From IMG/VR virus record IMGVR_UViG_3300007554_000511, positions 1-64,000 of that record: a stretch of DNA of 64,000 nucleotides. The stretch is one strand, 5' to 3'. The position numbers and the translations under genes are program-made. Origin of the DNA: a virus. Shown piece after piece: positions 1,992 through 50,515 of the stretch (the first letter of the stretch is position 1; the number at the start of each line of letters is the position of its first letter). Under the pieces are notes generated by a model that was not told the origin of the DNA, searched no databases, and saw nothing but the letters and a program-made list of their open reading frames with translations.

Positions 1992-2087
1992 TGGAGATGG
2001 GGTGGGGTTCGAACCCAACTTGAACACTCTGTTTCATCCGCCTGCCCAGATTTAACGAAACAGCATAGCACACCATGCCAGCCCATC
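1992..2087 (-). tRNA. tRNA-like element with oversized anticodon loop (probably degenerate)
   Basis: Reading on the minus strand there is a six-pair acceptor stem (GATGGG/CCCATC) followed by T and an encoded CCA, a T-arm with TTCGAAC loop, and a D-arm-like hairpin (GCAT...ATGC). The expected anticodon stem GTTTC/GAAAC encloses 21 bases instead of seven, so no anticodon can be assigned. It follows tRNA-Ser by 16 bases and is probably co-transcribed. Either a decayed tRNA or a tRNA mimic. Confidence 0.4.
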
Positions 2088-2091
2088 GATT

Positions 2092-2195: not shown

Positions 2196-2720
2196 AATAA
2201 TCAAGTCTCTACCACGTGCAAATCCTGTGAGAGGAATTTATCGGTTTTACCAGCACACTTCCCTAGTATCGTTGAGGAACTAGGTTTCCAGATAGTTAAG
2301 GTAAGGCTCACACCCACTTACCAAAGACTTGACTATATTGTTTTGCAGTTGCATCTTTATTCCTTCTACCTAGTCCACTGTAGGTGCGCCGTAGCTGGCC
2401 ACACAGCTTCATCCCAGTCCAGACGATCAACACTTACACACACTGCTATGCGGCATTACTCTGCTTCGGGTTGTTGTTGTGATTGCTACATCACTTCTCG
2501 TCATATGGTAACCAACCATACTAGACACTGCTACGTGTCACGTTCTGTCGGATCGGAAGAAAGCGAGCAATAAGCAGGACAAAATGCAAGGGCCGTTCTC
2601 GACCGCACCCAAAACAATTTACAAAAAACAAAATGCACAAGGCTTCATATTTCCAGTTATCAATGTGCAAGCATAACGCTATAATAAAACTGGAGCACAA
2701 TAGCATGACGGTGTTTAAAA
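2196..2720 (-). ncRNA. Candidate large structured RNA next to the tRNA cluster
   Basis: About 525 bases without a credible protein gene, ending immediately upstream of tRNA-Ser. It is dense in perfect hairpins: an 8-bp stem closing 2201-2332 (TCAAGTCT/AGACTTGA) that encloses hairpins CCTAGT/ACTAGG (2262-2284) and GTAAG/CTTAC (2301-2321); two hairpins (2479-2494 and 2524-2539) with the same six-base loop, GTAGCA on the minus strand; a hairpin at 2504-2520 (TATGGT/ACCATA); and an inverted repeat CCAGTT/AACTGG near 2656-2697. Size, ornate structure and location beside phage tRNAs recall the GOLLD and ROOL RNA classes, but no class signature was confirmed. Strand is inferred from the neighbours; exact ends are unknown. 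Confidence 0.5.
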
Positions 2721-2779
2721 CCATGACTATGTATGAATCTCATACGAGTTGCTTATTCTCTTCTCTTTCTCCCTTTCCG

Positions 2780-2799
2780 GGTAGTTTTATTAAACTACC
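2780..2799 (-). terminator. Hairpin downstream of the 2806-3369 gene
   Basis: Perfect 8-bp inverted repeat GGTAGTTT/AAACTACC with a four-base loop, just after the stop codon of the minus-strand gene. There is no downstream T run, so it may be a weak terminator or an RNA-stabilising hairpin. Confidence 0.45.
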
Positions 2800-2805
2800 A
2801 AAACC

Positions 2806-3369
2806 TTATAGGATGCCAGCCTTCACTAGGAAGTTTTCTGTGCCATCATCCAGTGTAATTGTAGTCTGCACGTTTAGTTCAAGCAGAGTGTCCTGTAGAC
2901 GCTGCTTTTCTCGCTTAAACTCGTTTGCAGAACGCTTAAACTCCTCAACTTCTTCCTCAGTGAAGATAGTAGTTACAACATCACGGCGGCTATAACCATA
3001 ACCATCGTCTTTAACTTCTTTCAACTTATTGAGTTGACCGTTAAGAACACGAAGGGCAGTTTGCACACCTTTGCTTGCAAGCATCTGCTTGTGGCTGATT
3101 TGTTTTTCAAGATATGCAACATTTGTAAGCATATCGTTGATACCAGATTCAGCGTTTGCACGTGCTACTTTCGCACGAATGTCATAAAGAGACATTAGAA
3201 GTTTATCACGTGTTTCAGCCTCTGCAAAGAAACGGTCACGTGCTGTTTGAATTTGATCTGTTGCGTCTTCAAACTCGTTTAGAGTTACATCATAACGAAG
3301 ATCAAGTGCTTTTACAGCATCGTTGATTGCGTTCTGTAGTGCATTTGCTTTACGTAGTGTAATTTCCAT
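2806..3369 (-). CDS. Coiled-coil protein, unknown
   Basis: A 187-residue, strongly helical and charged protein with heptad-like patterns through most of its length (about residues 5-75 and 95-165) and a short beta-like tail. No enzyme motif is visible. It heads away from the gene-free region and is preceded by a small acidic gene ten bases upstream, so it likely belongs to the operon starting at the TilS-like gene. Function unknown. Confidence 0.7.
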   Translation of the reverse strand: MEITLRKANALQNAINDAVKALDLRYDVTLNEFEDATDQIQTARDRFFAEAETRDKLLMSLYDIRAKVARANAESGINDMLTNVAYLEKQISHKQMLASKGVQTALRVLNGQLNKLKEVKDDGYGYSRRDVVTTIFTEEEVEEFKRSANEFKREKQRLQDTLLELNVQTTITLDDGTENFLVKAGIL

Positions 3370-9063: not shown

Positions 9064-9831
9064 TTATCCTACAAATGCTTTTTCTAGCACGAATTCACCT
9101 TTAGTGTTGGCGTTGCCTTCCGTGCATCCCTGTTCTTCAATGAAGTATTTTCTCAACTCCATATTCATTTCATGAGAACCACACACCATCACTCTATCGT
9201 GTTCTGGATCGAACGGCTCTATGTTTAATTTATCTTGAACCTTACCAGTATAAAGTGCGTCTGTAATTCTTCCAGTAGTATGGAAGTCTTCGCGTGTCAC
9301 TGTTGGATAAAATACAAATTTACCTTGAGTGACTTCACCGTATATTTCGTGGTCATTGAGTGTATTTAGAAAATCGTGATACGCAAGTTCTGCAATTTCA
9401 CGTGTTCCCCACATCAGAATAACACGATCAAAGTTATCATAAAAATCTAATGATCTTGTAATACTCATAAATGGTGCGACACCAGTACCAGTTGCGAGTA
9501 GATACAAGTTTCTCCCAGACTTGATATTGTCCATTACAAGTGTGCCAACTGCTTTTGTGTTTACAAGCAATTCGTCGCCAACTTTAACATGTTGCAGTCT
9601 ACTTGTGAGTGGACCATCTTGAACTTTGATTGAAAAGAATTCTAAGTATTCTTCATAGTTGGGAGATGCAACTGAATATGCACGTAGGAGTGGCTTACCA
9701 TCTACTTCGATCCCGATCATTAGAAACTCACCGTCACGAAACTTAATGTTTGGTGAGCGAGTTGTACGAATTCTGAATAGTCTGTCTGTGAAGTGTTCTA
9801 CTTCTAGTATCGTTTCTTTTTGAATTGCCAT
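9064..9831 (-). CDS. fpr: Ferredoxin/flavodoxin-NADP+ reductase
   Basis: This FAD enzyme moves electrons between NADPH and ferredoxin or flavodoxin. The 255-residue product from ATG 9829-9831 has the FAD motif RAYSVASP, the NADP phosphate loop GTGVAPF, the VMVCGS strand and a C-terminal FVLEKAFVG aromatic tail, all of the bacterial Fpr class. A longer frame upstream would overlap the broken gene beside it. With the FdxA-type ferredoxin (48273-48611) and glutaredoxin it forms a possible phage-encoded redox set. Confidence 0.92.
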   Translation of the reverse strand: MAIQKETILEVEHFTDRLFRIRTTRSPNIKFRDGEFLMIGIEVDGKPLLRAYSVASPNYEEYLEFFSIKVQDGPLTSRLQHVKVGDELLVNTKAVGTLVMDNIKSGRNLYLLATGTGVAPFMSITRSLDFYDNFDRVILMWGTREIAELAYHDFLNTLNDHEIYGEVTQGKFVFYPTVTREDFHTTGRITDALYTGKVQDKLNIEPFDPEHDRVMVCGSHEMNMELRKYFIEEQGCTEGNANTKGEFVLEKAFVG

Positions 9832-9833
9832 TG

Positions 9834-10079
9834 TTAACCGTATTTTAAAATTAGTTCTGCTTTTTTTTCTTCTGGAGCAGTTGTCCATTTAATCCAAGTG
9901 TCAAACTCCATTATTGTATCATGCCAATAGAAAAATTCTTCATCAACTTGAATAAACGCGGGACCATCTACACGATGAATCTTTCCATACTGATACCAAA
10001 TCTTTTGCTTGACTATGTGATCACATTATGCTGGACCTTCGTCCCTATGCATACTCCCAAACCGATAATATATAGTCAT
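9834..10079 (-). pseudogene. HRxDGPA-repeat protein interrupted by an in-frame stop
   Basis: The frame starting at ATG 10077-10079 reads MTIYYRFGSMHRDEGPA and then a TAA; beyond the stop the same frame continues with WYQYGKIHRVDGPAF and about 40 more residues to a TAA at 9834-9836. The two HR.DGPA repeats flank the stop, so one gene seems to have been broken. Related HNRKGPA wording occurs in the gene at 24709. Function of this repeat family is unknown. Confidence 0.6.
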
Positions 10080-10110
10080 ATCATCATAGTTGTGGATAGC
10101 ATACTTGTGA

Positions 10111-10545
10111 TTATTTTTTCCCTTTGGTCTTTTCCGCCTCTGCTACTCTCAGTCTCAAATCGCTTGTGCTAAATCGGTGATCACGCTCATTAAAATAAAT
10201 GTCAATATCGCGCTTCTTGCAAATATCTCTACCAGTAAAATCTTTGTCACGGTATTCTACCCCAAGAATACGAACATCAATATGCATACCAGAAAGAATA
10301 TCTTCCAAATCTTGCTCTGTTGCATATGGAATGATTTCGTCCACATACTTACATGCGCGTAGTTGCAGATAACGTTCTACTACCGTTTGTACTGGTTTAT
10401 TCTTTGATGGACGATCTAGTGTTGGATCAGTTTGTAATCCAACTATAAGATAGTCACATTGCTGTTTTGCTTCTTCAAGCATTAGAGTGTGACCTGCATG
10501 AAACAGATCGAAACTCGATGCAGTGAATCCTATTTTTTTACTCAT
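10111..10545 (-). CDS. Glycerol-3-phosphate cytidylyltransferase-type nucleotidyltransferase
   Basis: A 144-residue cytidylyltransferase, transferring CMP or AMP to a phosphorylated substrate. It has the nucleotide motif FDLFHAGHT (HxGH, residues 12-20), VGLQTD, and RFSTSDLR (about residues 122-129), which replaces the usual RTxGISTT. Size fits TagD-like single-domain enzymes. A role in modifying lipid, wall polymer or phage glycans is possible; the substrate is unknown. Its start overlaps the next upstream gene by four bases. Confidence 0.83.
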   Translation of the reverse strand: MSKKIGFTASSFDLFHAGHTLMLEEAKQQCDYLIVGLQTDPTLDRPSKNKPVQTVVERYLQLRACKYVDEIIPYATEQDLEDILSGMHIDVRILGVEYRDKDFTGRDICKKRDIDIYFNERDHRFSTSDLRLRVAEAEKTKGKK

Positions 10546-42488: not shown

Positions 42489-42737
42489 TTACCAGCGTGA
42501 CATTTCACGTAATGTACGCAACCAGCGTTGACGGCCAGCTTCCTTTGCTGTGCGGCGTTTCTCTGAACCACCAACATAATGCTGTCTTTCGCGATATTCC
42601 ATCACGATATTTTCTTCGACGCATTTTTTCTTAAAGCGTCTGATTGCTTTTTCTATATTACCACCACGAACACTTACTGTGGTGCCTGACTTCGCGAAAC
42701 GATCTTCGTCGTTACCTTTTTGATAGTGTTTAGACAT
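42489..42737 (-). CDS. rpsU: Ribosomal protein S21-like (bS21)
   Basis: bS21 binds the 30S platform near the anti-Shine-Dalgarno and aids initiation. The 82-residue product has the conserved GNIEKAIRRFKKKCVEENI (about residues 27-45) and the basic tail SEKRRTAKEAGRQRWLR. Phages often carry bS21, thought to bias ribosomes toward phage mRNA. It overlaps the IF3 gene by eight bases. Confidence 0.92.
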   Translation of the reverse strand: MSKHYQKGNDEDRFAKSGTTVSVRGGNIEKAIRRFKKKCVEENIVMEYRERQHYVGGSEKRRTAKEAGRQRWLRTLREMSRW

Positions 42738-43272
42738 CTTTTATAATTACACCTGTTATTCTATTGCCTGCTTGAGTTAGTACTTGCTCATACTTAAATC
42801 CAGTTAGACGTACAGAAAACTCTGACACGAGATTAGCTTTAACCTCATTTCCTTTGGTGATTTCTCTGCCTCTAAGCTGGACTGTTATTTTTACTTTTGC
42901 ACCCTTCTCAATAAACTTAGCGATTTGTTTTACTTTAATATCCAAATCATGTTCACCGATGCCGGGTCTGAATTTTACTTCCTTAATCTCAATAGCGTTC
43001 TCTCTTGCCTTTTTAGCGGCTTCCTTTTCACGCTTTTTAAGTTCGTAGTTATATTTATTCAAATCAACAATTCTTGCTACGGGAGGACTACTTTTTTCGG
43101 TAATTATTACCAAGTCTTTGTCCTGTTGCATCGCTAGATCAAGCGCGTCACGCTTTGACATAATCCCAAGTTGTTCATTATCATCACCGACAACTCTTAA
43201 CTCATTGTATCTAATGCGCTCGTTTGCAATGGGTTGATCATTGCCGCGCGATCCACGATTGTACTTATCCAT
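42730..43272 (-). CDS. infC: Translation initiation factor IF-3
   Basis: IF3 keeps the subunits apart and checks start codon pairing on the 30S. The 180-residue protein has NERIRYNELRVVGDD...LGIMSKRDAL (N domain), a lysine-rich linker KKREKEAAKKAREN, and the C domain with KEVKFRPGIGEHDLDIKVKQ and KVKITVQLRGREIT, i.e. both domains of a full-length IF3. Its coupling to S21 gives a two-gene initiation control cassette. Rare in phages. Confidence 0.93.
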   Translation of the reverse strand: MDKYNRGSRGNDQPIANERIRYNELRVVGDDNEQLGIMSKRDALDLAMQQDKDLVIITEKSSPPVARIVDLNKYNYELKKREKEAAKKARENAIEIKEVKFRPGIGEHDLDIKVKQIAKFIEKGAKVKITVQLRGREITKGNEVKANLVSEFSVRLTGFKYEQVLTQAGNRITGVIIKDV

Positions 43273-43277
43273 AGTAA

Positions 43278-44516
43278 TTATTTTTGCATTTCCTTTTCTT
43301 GCTTGAATACTAGCACAGGATCACCACCATGTTGAATGAATTCCTGTGTGACTACGACTTTTTCTAGACCATCTTTGGCTAGTGTCGGAAGTTTAAATTG
43401 AATTTTAAGTAGCGCCTTCTCAATTACACTACGAAGTCCTCTGGCGCCAGTTTTGTTTTCGACAGCATTGTCTGCGATTGCTTGTAGTGATTCTGGTGTA
43501 AATTCTAGTTCAACATTGTCTAGATCAAAAAGACGTTTAAACTGACTTACTAGATTGTTCTTTGGCTCAGTTAGAACCCGAACAAGTTGTTCTGCGTTGA
43601 GTGGATCAAGTCCAACTACGATTGGGAAACGTCCCATGAATTCTGGAATCATACCATATTTGATAACATCTTGTGGAGTTACATTTTCACGAATGTTGAC
43701 TTTACTGTCTGATGGAGTTTTAACATCTGCACCGAAACCAATAGACGCCCCAGTGGCTAGTCTCTTTTCAATCACTTTATCGATACCAACAAAAGCCCCA
43801 CCGACAATGAACAGAATTTCGTCAGTCTTGACTTCAATCATATCTTGCCCCGGATGCTTACGCCCACCGCCAGGTGGGACGCGCACAGTAGTACCTTCGA
43901 CAATCTTTAGCAATGCTTGCTGTACACCTTCTCCGGATACATCCTTACTGATTGAAATGTTTTCGCCTTTTTTTGCTTTCTTATCGACTTCATCGATATA
44001 CACAATTCCGCGCTCTGCTTTCTTTACATCAAAGTCACTTGCCATAAGTAGACGTTGAATAACGTTTTCAACGTCCTCGCCCACATAACCACTCTCTGTT
44101 AGAGTAGTTGCGTCCACCTGTGCGAACGGCACATCCAGCAATTTTGCGATTGATTTTGCAATAAGAGTCTTACCAGTACCAGACGGTCCCATAACCATCA
44201 CGTTTGATTTTTCTAGTTCGACATCTTTTGACTTTGAGTTGATACGCTTATAATGGTTGTAGACGGCAACGCTCAACACTTCCTTAGCTTCATCTTGACC
44301 AATAATGTATTTGTCCAAATGGTCTTTAATTTGCTCAGGCGTTGGGATGCCGTCTACGTGTGTAGTATCAACATCAGATTTGGTATCGTGTATAATCTCA
44401 TAACATAGATCGACGCATTCATTACAGATATATATTCCAGGTCCTGCAATCAATGTTTTAATGTCTGTTTTATGTTTCCCACAAAACGAACACGTGTACT
44501 CTTTTTTCTCTGACAT
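43278..44516 (-). CDS. clpX: ClpX, ATPase subunit of ClpXP
   Basis: ClpX unfolds tagged proteins and threads them into ClpP. The 412-residue product is full length: an N-terminal zinc domain (CSFCGKH...CNECVDLC), Walker A GPSGTGKT (about residues 109-116), Walker B IVYIDEVDKKA, the pore loop GYVGEDVE, and the substrate-binding loop PGGGRKHPGQ (RKH motif). The ClpP-docking IGF-type loop and sensor regions appear intact. No clpP in the window. A phage ClpX could redirect host ClpP to tmRNA-tagged or phage substrates. Confidence 0.96.
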   Translation of the reverse strand: MSEKKEYTCSFCGKHKTDIKTLIAGPGIYICNECVDLCYEIIHDTKSDVDTTHVDGIPTPEQIKDHLDKYIIGQDEAKEVLSVAVYNHYKRINSKSKDVELEKSNVMVMGPSGTGKTLIAKSIAKLLDVPFAQVDATTLTESGYVGEDVENVIQRLLMASDFDVKKAERGIVYIDEVDKKAKKGENISISKDVSGEGVQQALLKIVEGTTVRVPPGGGRKHPGQDMIEVKTDEILFIVGGAFVGIDKVIEKRLATGASIGFGADVKTPSDSKVNIRENVTPQDVIKYGMIPEFMGRFPIVVGLDPLNAEQLVRVLTEPKNNLVSQFKRLFDLDNVELEFTPESLQAIADNAVENKTGARGLRSVIEKALLKIQFKLPTLAKDGLEKVVVTQEFIQHGGDPVLVFKQEKEMQK

Positions 44517-49776: not shown

Positions 49777-50109
49777 TTACGATACTAACTCCGGTACTTC
49801 CTCAAAGAGTGCGGCAGAACCACCAATATAGTAGCGAAGAAGTTGAACATCATCATCTTGACTACGATATGTTTCTACCCATTTACGTGCAACCTCGCCG
49901 GTTTCACAAATGATAACACAGTTTGCAGTTCTAAAGTACATCGGTACCGCAGAAACGTGATTTGGAAGATCGTATTCTTCTATTTCGAACGCATCTTTAA
50001 TGCGTCCTTGGGCATCAACATTATCCTCGTCGCGAATATCAACGATGATCAAAATACCACCAATTAGACCTCTAAGTTCATCTGGACCAATACCAAATTC
50101 TTCTGACAT
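49777..50109 (-). CDS. Rhodanese-like protein without obvious active cysteine loop
   Basis: A 110-residue protein with IIVDIRDEDNVDAQGRIKDA (about residues 21-40) and VIICETGEVARKWVE, the order of a rhodanese domain. The usual active-site loop CxxGxR is CETGEV, so sulfur transfer is possible but not certain. First gene after the tmRNA. Confidence 0.6.
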   Translation of the reverse strand: MSEEFGIGPDELRGLIGGILIIVDIRDEDNVDAQGRIKDAFEIEEYDLPNHVSAVPMYFRTANCVIICETGEVARKWVETYRSQDDDVQLLRYYIGGSAALFEEVPELVS

Positions 50110-50121
50110 ATATAAACTCCG

Positions 50122-50484
50122 TTAAGTTGCAACTTTTCTGTTGCTAGGTAAGTTGCCAACCCCCACGTGCTATTAAGCCGCTAGTTTTGCCATTGCTGGC
50201 GCTGCGTTTGTGTTTGCAGTTATAAAGTTTGACCGAATAACGTAGGTCACCACGGTTAACTCCACTCTATCTTCACACCTGTCGATTCCTAATTCAGCCC
50301 CATCAAAAACACACTTTACAGGATTTGAACCTGTAATCGTACTAGGGTTCCTCATCGTACTACCGTTCCTAGACCACCTTGCTTTTGCTGTATAACATAC
50401 GCTTTCAAAGTGTGTTTGTGGTGGAGCTGTCGGGATTCGCACCCGAGTCCAGTATGTGTCCACGTTGCTTCAACGCTAACAGTT
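50122..50484 (-). ncRNA. ssrA: Circularly permuted (two-piece) tmRNA
   Basis: The acceptor piece comes first in transcription: T-arm TCGGG-TGCGAAT-CCCGA and CAGCTCC-ACCA ending at 50419. An intervening 117 bases (50302-50418) follow, then the coding piece starting GGGGCTG at 50301, which pairs with CAGCTCC. The tag frame at 50173-50217 reads ANTNAAPAMAKLAA and stops. A terminal GCAAC/GTTGC hairpin ends near 50122. This order is that of the alphaproteobacterial two-piece tmRNA, which rescues stalled ribosomes and tags proteins for ClpXP. The intervening segment has an 11-bp stem (50307-50317/50407-50417) abutting a tRNA T-arm (50318-50334), so it is itself tRNA-like. Boundaries are approximate. 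Confidence 0.93.
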
Positions 50485-50486
50485 TA

Positions 50487-50515
50487 TTTATAGCATATAA
50501 AGTATTAGATGTCAA
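50487..50515 (-). promoter_or_regulatory. Dual promoter of the tmRNA gene
   Basis: TTGACA, 17 bases, TATAAA, where the -10 continues as TATAAATAA and so also matches the late motif. The -10 ends three bases before the predicted RNA. Confidence 0.8.

Follow-up and report, generated by a model that had tools for sequence, protein, structure and literature searches.

A gap beside a phage tRNA gene probably encodes three separate structured RNAs

What does a gene-free gap beside a phage tRNA gene encode? The question arises near the start of the 64,000-nucleotide stretch of DNA analysed here (the window), which is the first part of a 112,630-base virus record; a 342-kb IMG/VR contig (L001) carries a stretch identical to the window region around 2196-2720. 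The gap at 2196-2720 lies between an open reading frame at 2806-3369 and a tRNA-Ser(ACU) gene, and the genes next to it, one of them TilS-like (PP-loop family), are on the minus strand. The initial annotation had read this gap as a single large structured RNA without genes, possibly of the GOLLD or ROOL type, that ends at tRNA-Ser. The adjoining tRNA-Ser was confirmed, and the gap was indeed found to be gene-free: the frames inside 2196-2720 span only 30-76 amino acids, the longest of them gave no Pfam match above the cut-off, and tblastn with the 76-aa and 67-aa frames against 50,697 phage records returned no match. A hidden protein in another frame was thus rejected.

GOLLD (RF02032) and ROOL are both phage RNAs found near tRNA islands, as is the window region, and both use kissing loops; ROOL is also similar in total length, and GOLLD, likewise without an assigned function, assembles into a homo-oligomeric cage (PMC12286853). 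The GOLLD covariance model gave no match in the window, in contrast to the positive controls L007, L008, L031 and L046, which it matched at 182-196 bits. The ROOL Rfam covariance model did not match either, and no ROOL-positive control was met among the loci searched. At gathering thresholds, Rfam as a whole returned no match within the gap, and only chance-level matches appeared up to E=10; its ribozyme models gave no match, and tRNA/tmRNA model matches and ARAGORN calls were absent from 2197-2779, all of them lying outside the three modules described below. L007 and L008 are relatives of the window phage that carry two of these modules, A and C, apart from GOLLD. Membership in GOLLD or ROOL, which the initial annotation had proposed, was therefore rejected, since no model matched and L007 and L008 carry a true GOLLD at a separate place. 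In the C-bearing phages the true GOLLD co-occurs with C and maps to 9633-10097 (L007), 9782-10244 (L008), 844-1304 (L031) and 120-579 (L046); a tRNA gene was predicted within each of these four matches.

Comparison with related phages resolved positions 2197-2779 on the minus strand into what are probably three separate structured RNAs rather than one giant RNA:

2549-2779, minus strand: module A RNA, about 231 nt, with a closing helix of 2762-2779 with 2549-2566; matched by model R3
2350-2545, minus strand: module B RNA, with approximate ends and a length of about 196 nt; homologues in L013/L081 and L094; matched by model R2
2197-2336, minus strand: module C RNA, 140 nt in length, with P1 (2336-2322 with 2211-2197) as its closing stem

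The interval of the initial annotation accordingly loses the 5' part of A and fuses three modules; its structured non-coding RNA beside phage tRNA genes stands, whereas its single large RNA does not, as A, B and C occur separately. Query positions 1-203 matched L010 and in parts L007 and L008, positions 308-481 gave an 84% match to L013, and positions 576-614 matched L007, L008, L010 and a Synechococcus phage. Three of these loci, L007, L008 and L010, lack B and have tRNA-Leu(CAA) between A and C, while L013 has B alone, after tRNA-Leu(CAA). The modules are thus separate, split by tRNA genes or missing in related phages, unlike the one continuous large RNA of ROOL and the single large RNA of GOLLD. 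If A, B and C nevertheless formed one large ornate RNA with a GOLLD- or ROOL-like role, such as that of a multimeric cage, this would suit their combined length of ~580 nt beside tRNAs and the GUAGC/GCUAC loop complementarity within B, kissing loops being present in GOLLD and ROOL too (PMC12286853). We consider this very improbable, given the lack of an Rfam match, the tRNA genes that separate the modules in relatives, and the closing helix that A and C each have of their own. All three RNAs appear to be undescribed in Rfam and in open-licence papers, in which we found no description of them.

The folding energy of the 525 nt was no better than that of shuffles (z-scores of +0.77 on the minus strand and +0.22 on the plus strand), so more-than-chance structure is not shown by this measure, which we discarded as evidence. 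Structure beyond chance was shown instead by comparison of homologues, one of the checks proposed by the initial annotation: covariation was present in C, in the closing helix of A and in B. The structures of C and A are well supported, that of B moderately so. That the stretch is chance or decayed sequence without function would fit the folding energies, but hardly deserves belief in view of the compensatory changes in every module and of a C core kept in 45 distinct phage sequences.

Module C and its tRNA neighbour comprise the following features:

2301-2321, minus strand: P2 hairpin, GUAAG-UGGGUGUGAGC-CUUAC, in which GUGAG (2311-2307) kisses the P3 loop
2262-2284, minus strand: extra hairpin, CCUAGU..ACUAGG, an insertion missing in most members
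2236-2255, minus strand: invariant core, UGCUGGUAAAACCGAUAAAU, containing the mini-hairpin P6 (2251-2249 with 2245-2243)
2223-2235, minus strand: P3 hairpin, UCCU-CUCAC-AGGA, whose loop (2231-2227) pairs with the P2 loop
2104-2193, minus strand: tRNA-Ser(ACU), starting 3 nt beyond module C

The closing stem seen by the initial annotation proved real and longer than claimed, with 15 bp including G-U (2322-2336 with 2197-2211). Across its members, C is an RNA of ~100-150 nt that combines an invariant core with a kissing loop that covaries. The common fold, derived from the flanks, consists of the closing stem P1, the P2 hairpin with a loop of ~14 nt, and P4 (UGC/GCA plus a variable pair), which encloses P6 (GGU-AAA-ACC) and the P3 hairpin. 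Pairing holds in 90.8% of the cells of seed alignment A4, compared to 74.7% when shuffled and at most 45.5% when slid, and the covariation score reaches 0.478, compared to 0.194±0.018 for shuffled and at most 0.129 for slid structures. In a wider hand alignment, which is supporting evidence only because the register was chosen by hand, pairing was found in 108/108 cases for the kissing loop, 107/108 for P3 and 133/135 for P2 (shuffled means of 85, 73 and 68, respectively). P1 is strongly supported (21.5 versus 13.8±0.5 for shuffled partners), and an additional helix, P5, which competes with inner P1 pairs in the window, only moderately (11.1 versus 9.35±0.36). The kissing pairs GAGA/UCUC, UAGG/CCUA, GAGG/CCUC and GGGA/UCCC occur where the window has GUGAG/CUCAC, so the loop-loop contacts suggested by the initial annotation hold for C; in B they are possible only, via the GUAGCA loops. 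P6 shows the compensatory changes GCU/AGC and GGA/UCC, the Pseudomonas phages Astolliot and Milchi having GCU-AAA-AGC. Model R1, built without the window, scored the window C at 45.3 bits with an E-value of 4.3e-7 in 836 kb, a rough figure as are all E-values of the covariance models R1, R2 and R3. Because the scanned core pattern came from the window, the R1 seed was selected for the core, though not for the helices.

The C core was scanned as the exact pattern TGCTGGTAWAACCGWTAAAT, a procedure that underestimates C, and was detected in 58 stretches of IMG/VR DNA. A tRNA or tmRNA lay within 6 kb of C in 41 of the 45 distinct sequences, the nearest being on the same strand in 41/41, with a median gap of 8 nt; four C loci had no tRNA within reach. 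C adjoins many different tRNAs, on either side, and is present in one copy, at most two, per locus, though the clusters hold many tRNAs. Among isolates, it was found in Astolliot, Milchi, Synechococcus phage BUCT-ZZ01, where it lies directly 5' of a permuted tmRNA, and Agrobacterium phage Atu_ph07. The Atu_ph07 copy (299480-299579, minus strand) was found by R1 among whole isolate phages, at a rough E-value of 2.4e-5, and its core was not preselected, as it differs from the scanned pattern. Its kissing pair (CUGUC/GACAG) and its P6 pair (GGA/UCC) are both new, and its closing stem measures 10 bp. This copy sits in an unannotated 777-bp gap with the nearest tRNA ~3.6 kb away and ends in a terminator-like U-run. 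A search of KVP40, P-SSM2, PA5oct, pVp-1, TSW001, CcrColossus, LR745206, Domovoi and XacN1 found no C. Loci L098-L105, from a scan with a core-variant pattern, were judged unrelated to C (16.7-17.9 bits where scored, no tRNAs), and the pattern matches L095 and L096, also without tRNAs, were attributed to chance.

In 257 Gb of cellular genomes, the core gave 8 exact matches, compared to ~7.5 expected by chance according to our own estimate from 18 effective bases on both strands. None of the 8 lies in a tRNA cluster or has the C fold, and they score at most 28.1 bits. The presence of C in cellular genomes was rejected on this ground, and C is phage-only as far as this exact-core scan shows.

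Could C be a small ribozyme, self-cleaving or processing, that belongs to phage tRNA operons and whose kissing loop and core form an active site that trims the adjacent tRNA transcript? An invariant unpaired core and a loop-loop contact are common among small ribozymes; C has both, and only a few nucleotides separate it from tRNA ends. However, it matches no Rfam ribozyme, it occurs once or at most twice per locus despite the many tRNAs in a cluster, and the Atu_ph07 copy is away from tRNAs, so we consider a ribozyme distinctly unlikely.

By place and size, the closest analogues of C and B are rnaC and rnaD of phage T4 (species 1 and 2 RNA), stable RNAs of 119-139 nt in a phage tRNA cluster that are annotated without a stated function. 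In contrast to C, rnaC ends in a T arm, and by eye neither rnaC nor rnaD has the C core. R1 found no match in the T4 genome (AF158101) and the sequences differ by eye, so homology to rnaC/rnaD was rejected. tRNAs and permuted tmRNAs are frequent neighbours of C, and the window modules match neither model. In L033 (3958-4055, minus strand), L038 and L035 (2791-2873), the C core is part of a fold that resembles a tRNA in having an acceptor stem, a D arm and a T arm; R1 scores L033 at 36 bits and L035 at only 23 bits, which is noise level. Short hypothetical proteins, UTS52133.1 in BUCT-ZZ01 (L022 1454-1648) and XPP60698.1 in Milchi (L092 2501-2605), are annotated across C and are probably spurious.

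Module A and the gene upstream of it are composed of the following:

2806-3369, minus strand: gene for a 187-aa protein predicted to be all-helical, the constant 5' neighbour of A
2780-2799, minus strand: hairpin GGUAGUUU-AAUA-AAACUACC, a perfect 8-bp inverted repeat between the ORF stop and A
2653-2693, minus strand: A inner stem, CCAGUU (2693-2688) with AACUGG (2658-2653), with compensatory changes
2611-2640, minus strand: A heptad track, with UUG at 2631, 2624 and 2617 in register and at 2640 out of register

The 5' arm of the A closing helix pairs best with its own 3' arm in 9/9 sequences, at a mean of -33.7 kcal/mol compared to -21.1 for the arms of others, the best of 20,000 permutations reaching -31.2. 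Homologues carry variants of the inner stem such as CCGAUU/AAUCGG and CUAGCG/CGCUAG. Downstream of this stem runs the UUG heptad track. Chains of 3-6 UUG with a period of 7 were detected in the window and in seven other metagenomic A sequences, period 7 giving the longest chain in each, and a pyrimidine follows UUG in every heptad of the A chains. The A of Caulobacter phage CcrColossus has six heptads (TTGTGGG TTGCGCG TTGTCCG TTGTAGC TTGCCCT TTGTCCA) and that of Brevundimonas phage Domovoi has five UGC heptads, numbers that were each reached in 0/2000 shuffles. With only three heptads in register (p = 0.0075), the window track was recognised through these relatives.

A was located directly 3' of homologues of ORF 2806-3369, which are 42-65% identical, in all eight metagenomic phage loci with A, the window included. 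It also follows a distant homologue of this ORF in CcrColossus, where this is gp272, and in Domovoi, in gaps of 284 nt and 313 nt, respectively. The GGTAG..CTACC of the hairpin at 2780-2799 is found in L010, L007, L126 and L127 as well. L002 has an ORF homologue and no recognisable A; in L002 and L004 (5571-5920), the place of A downstream of the ORF homologue is taken by another structured-looking stretch, whose end, just ahead of tRNA-Met, resembles the T arm and acceptor strand of a tRNA. The protein encoded by ORF 2806-3369 is predicted to be all-helical (mean pLDDT 90.5), and has no family match above the cut-off; its only fold match, to 3kdq, is weak (E 0.057).

The constant position of A directly 3' of the same ORF would also fit cis elements of the tRNA-cluster transcript, which would stabilise it, space its processing sites or, in the case of A, regulate the ORF via its 3' UTR, rather than separate RNAs. 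The tight apposition of C to tRNA genes and the terminator-like U-run of the Atu_ph07 copy point the same way. The C core and kissing loop are, however, far more elaborate than stabilising hairpins, and C stands beside many different tRNAs on either side, which makes cis elements an unlikely explanation.

For module B, the hairpins are as follows:

2524-2539, minus strand: hairpin 1, GACAC-GUAGCA-GUGUC; L081 has UCUGU-GUAGCA-ACAGA, the same loop on another stem
2479-2494, minus strand: hairpin 2, GUGAU-GUAGCA-AUCAC, with the GUAGCA loop kept in the window and L081
2388-2399, minus strand: hairpin GCC-AGCUAC-GGC, the same in L013/L081 and missing in L094

The two same-loop hairpins of the initial annotation are thus present, GUAGCA being the minus-strand reading of what is UGCUAC on the plus strand. 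The AGCUAC loop (2391-2396) is complementary to GUAGCA over 5 nt, which suggests a contact between these loops; since the loops differ in L094, the contact is only suggested. B is known from three distinct sequences (window, L013/L081 and L094), each of which lies in a tRNA cluster, and RNAalifold on them gave 12 pairs with two-sided changes. A tRNA-like RNA was observed in the window (1993-2088, minus strand), in L013 (6131-6227) and in L081 (848-944). ARAGORN calls it Phe/Tyr, whereas Rfam gives no tRNA call. Its CCA end is encoded, and an elongated anticodon arm replaces the 7-nt loop; GGGCAGGCGGATGAAACA is kept and the acceptor stem is different between the two phages. Elsewhere in the window, we observed a phage-encoded permuted tmRNA of the alphaproteobacterial type (50082-50512, minus strand, tag ANTNAAPAMAKLAA) and, from translations read by eye, IF-3-like and ClpX-like genes (42730-44516, minus strand); IF-3 is also annotated in the C-bearing Atu_ph07.

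The comparisons above establish, at the level of sequence, the independent occurrence of the modules, their helices, their constant neighbours and their strand. Our preferred reading, which we consider likely, is that three separate structured RNAs are read on the minus strand in one array with the phage tRNA genes; in this reading, C and B would act in trans, and A would work with the protein encoded upstream. A consensus scan for promoters and terminators gave none that settles the transcript of the array. The end of C is 3 nt from tRNA-Ser, and in many phages C lies a few nucleotides from a tRNA, so the array may be transcribed together with the tRNAs and then separated by the ordinary processing of tRNAs. 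C folds as a junction closed by P1, in which the kiss between the P2 and P3 loops would lock the invariant core in one shape. It seems quite possible, if short of probable, that C is a stable, non-catalytic trans RNA that occupies or decoys the host translation or tRNA-handling machinery, and B probably works like C, in trans. This proposal for C and B is based on the precedent of T4 rnaC/rnaD and on ribosome binding by GOLLD, which is reported from pull-downs in work cited in PMC12286853. As for A, its closing helix would present a single-stranded UUG-type heptad track, one heptad for each subunit of the protein encoded upstream. Because of the constant protein neighbour and the regular heptads, we tentatively propose, as a possibility held somewhat more loosely than that for C, that A and this protein form a ribonucleoprotein or that A is a 3'-UTR autoregulator. 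It is doubtful that the fullest version holds in all its parts, namely that C is a catalytic or decoy RNA of a new functional class in large phages of Proteobacteria and Cyanobacteria and that A and ORF 2806-3369 form a ribonucleoprotein whose oligomeric helical protein reads the UUG heptads.

The novelty of these RNAs is at the level of the RNA family, since orphan phage RNAs beside tRNAs (T4 rnaC/rnaD, GOLLD, ROOL) are already known. Phage tRNA islands are usually taken as codon supplements. Our data indicate that they also hold recurrent structured RNAs that have been overlooked or miscalled as proteins, as with the two annotations across C. With C beside tRNAs in dozens of phages and A tied to a single protein gene, both look like widespread phage tools. 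The function of C is directly testable, as Pseudomonas, Synechococcus and Agrobacterium phages that carry it have been isolated; for A, there is a candidate protein partner, and CcrColossus, which infects Caulobacter crescentus, can serve as the experimental phage.
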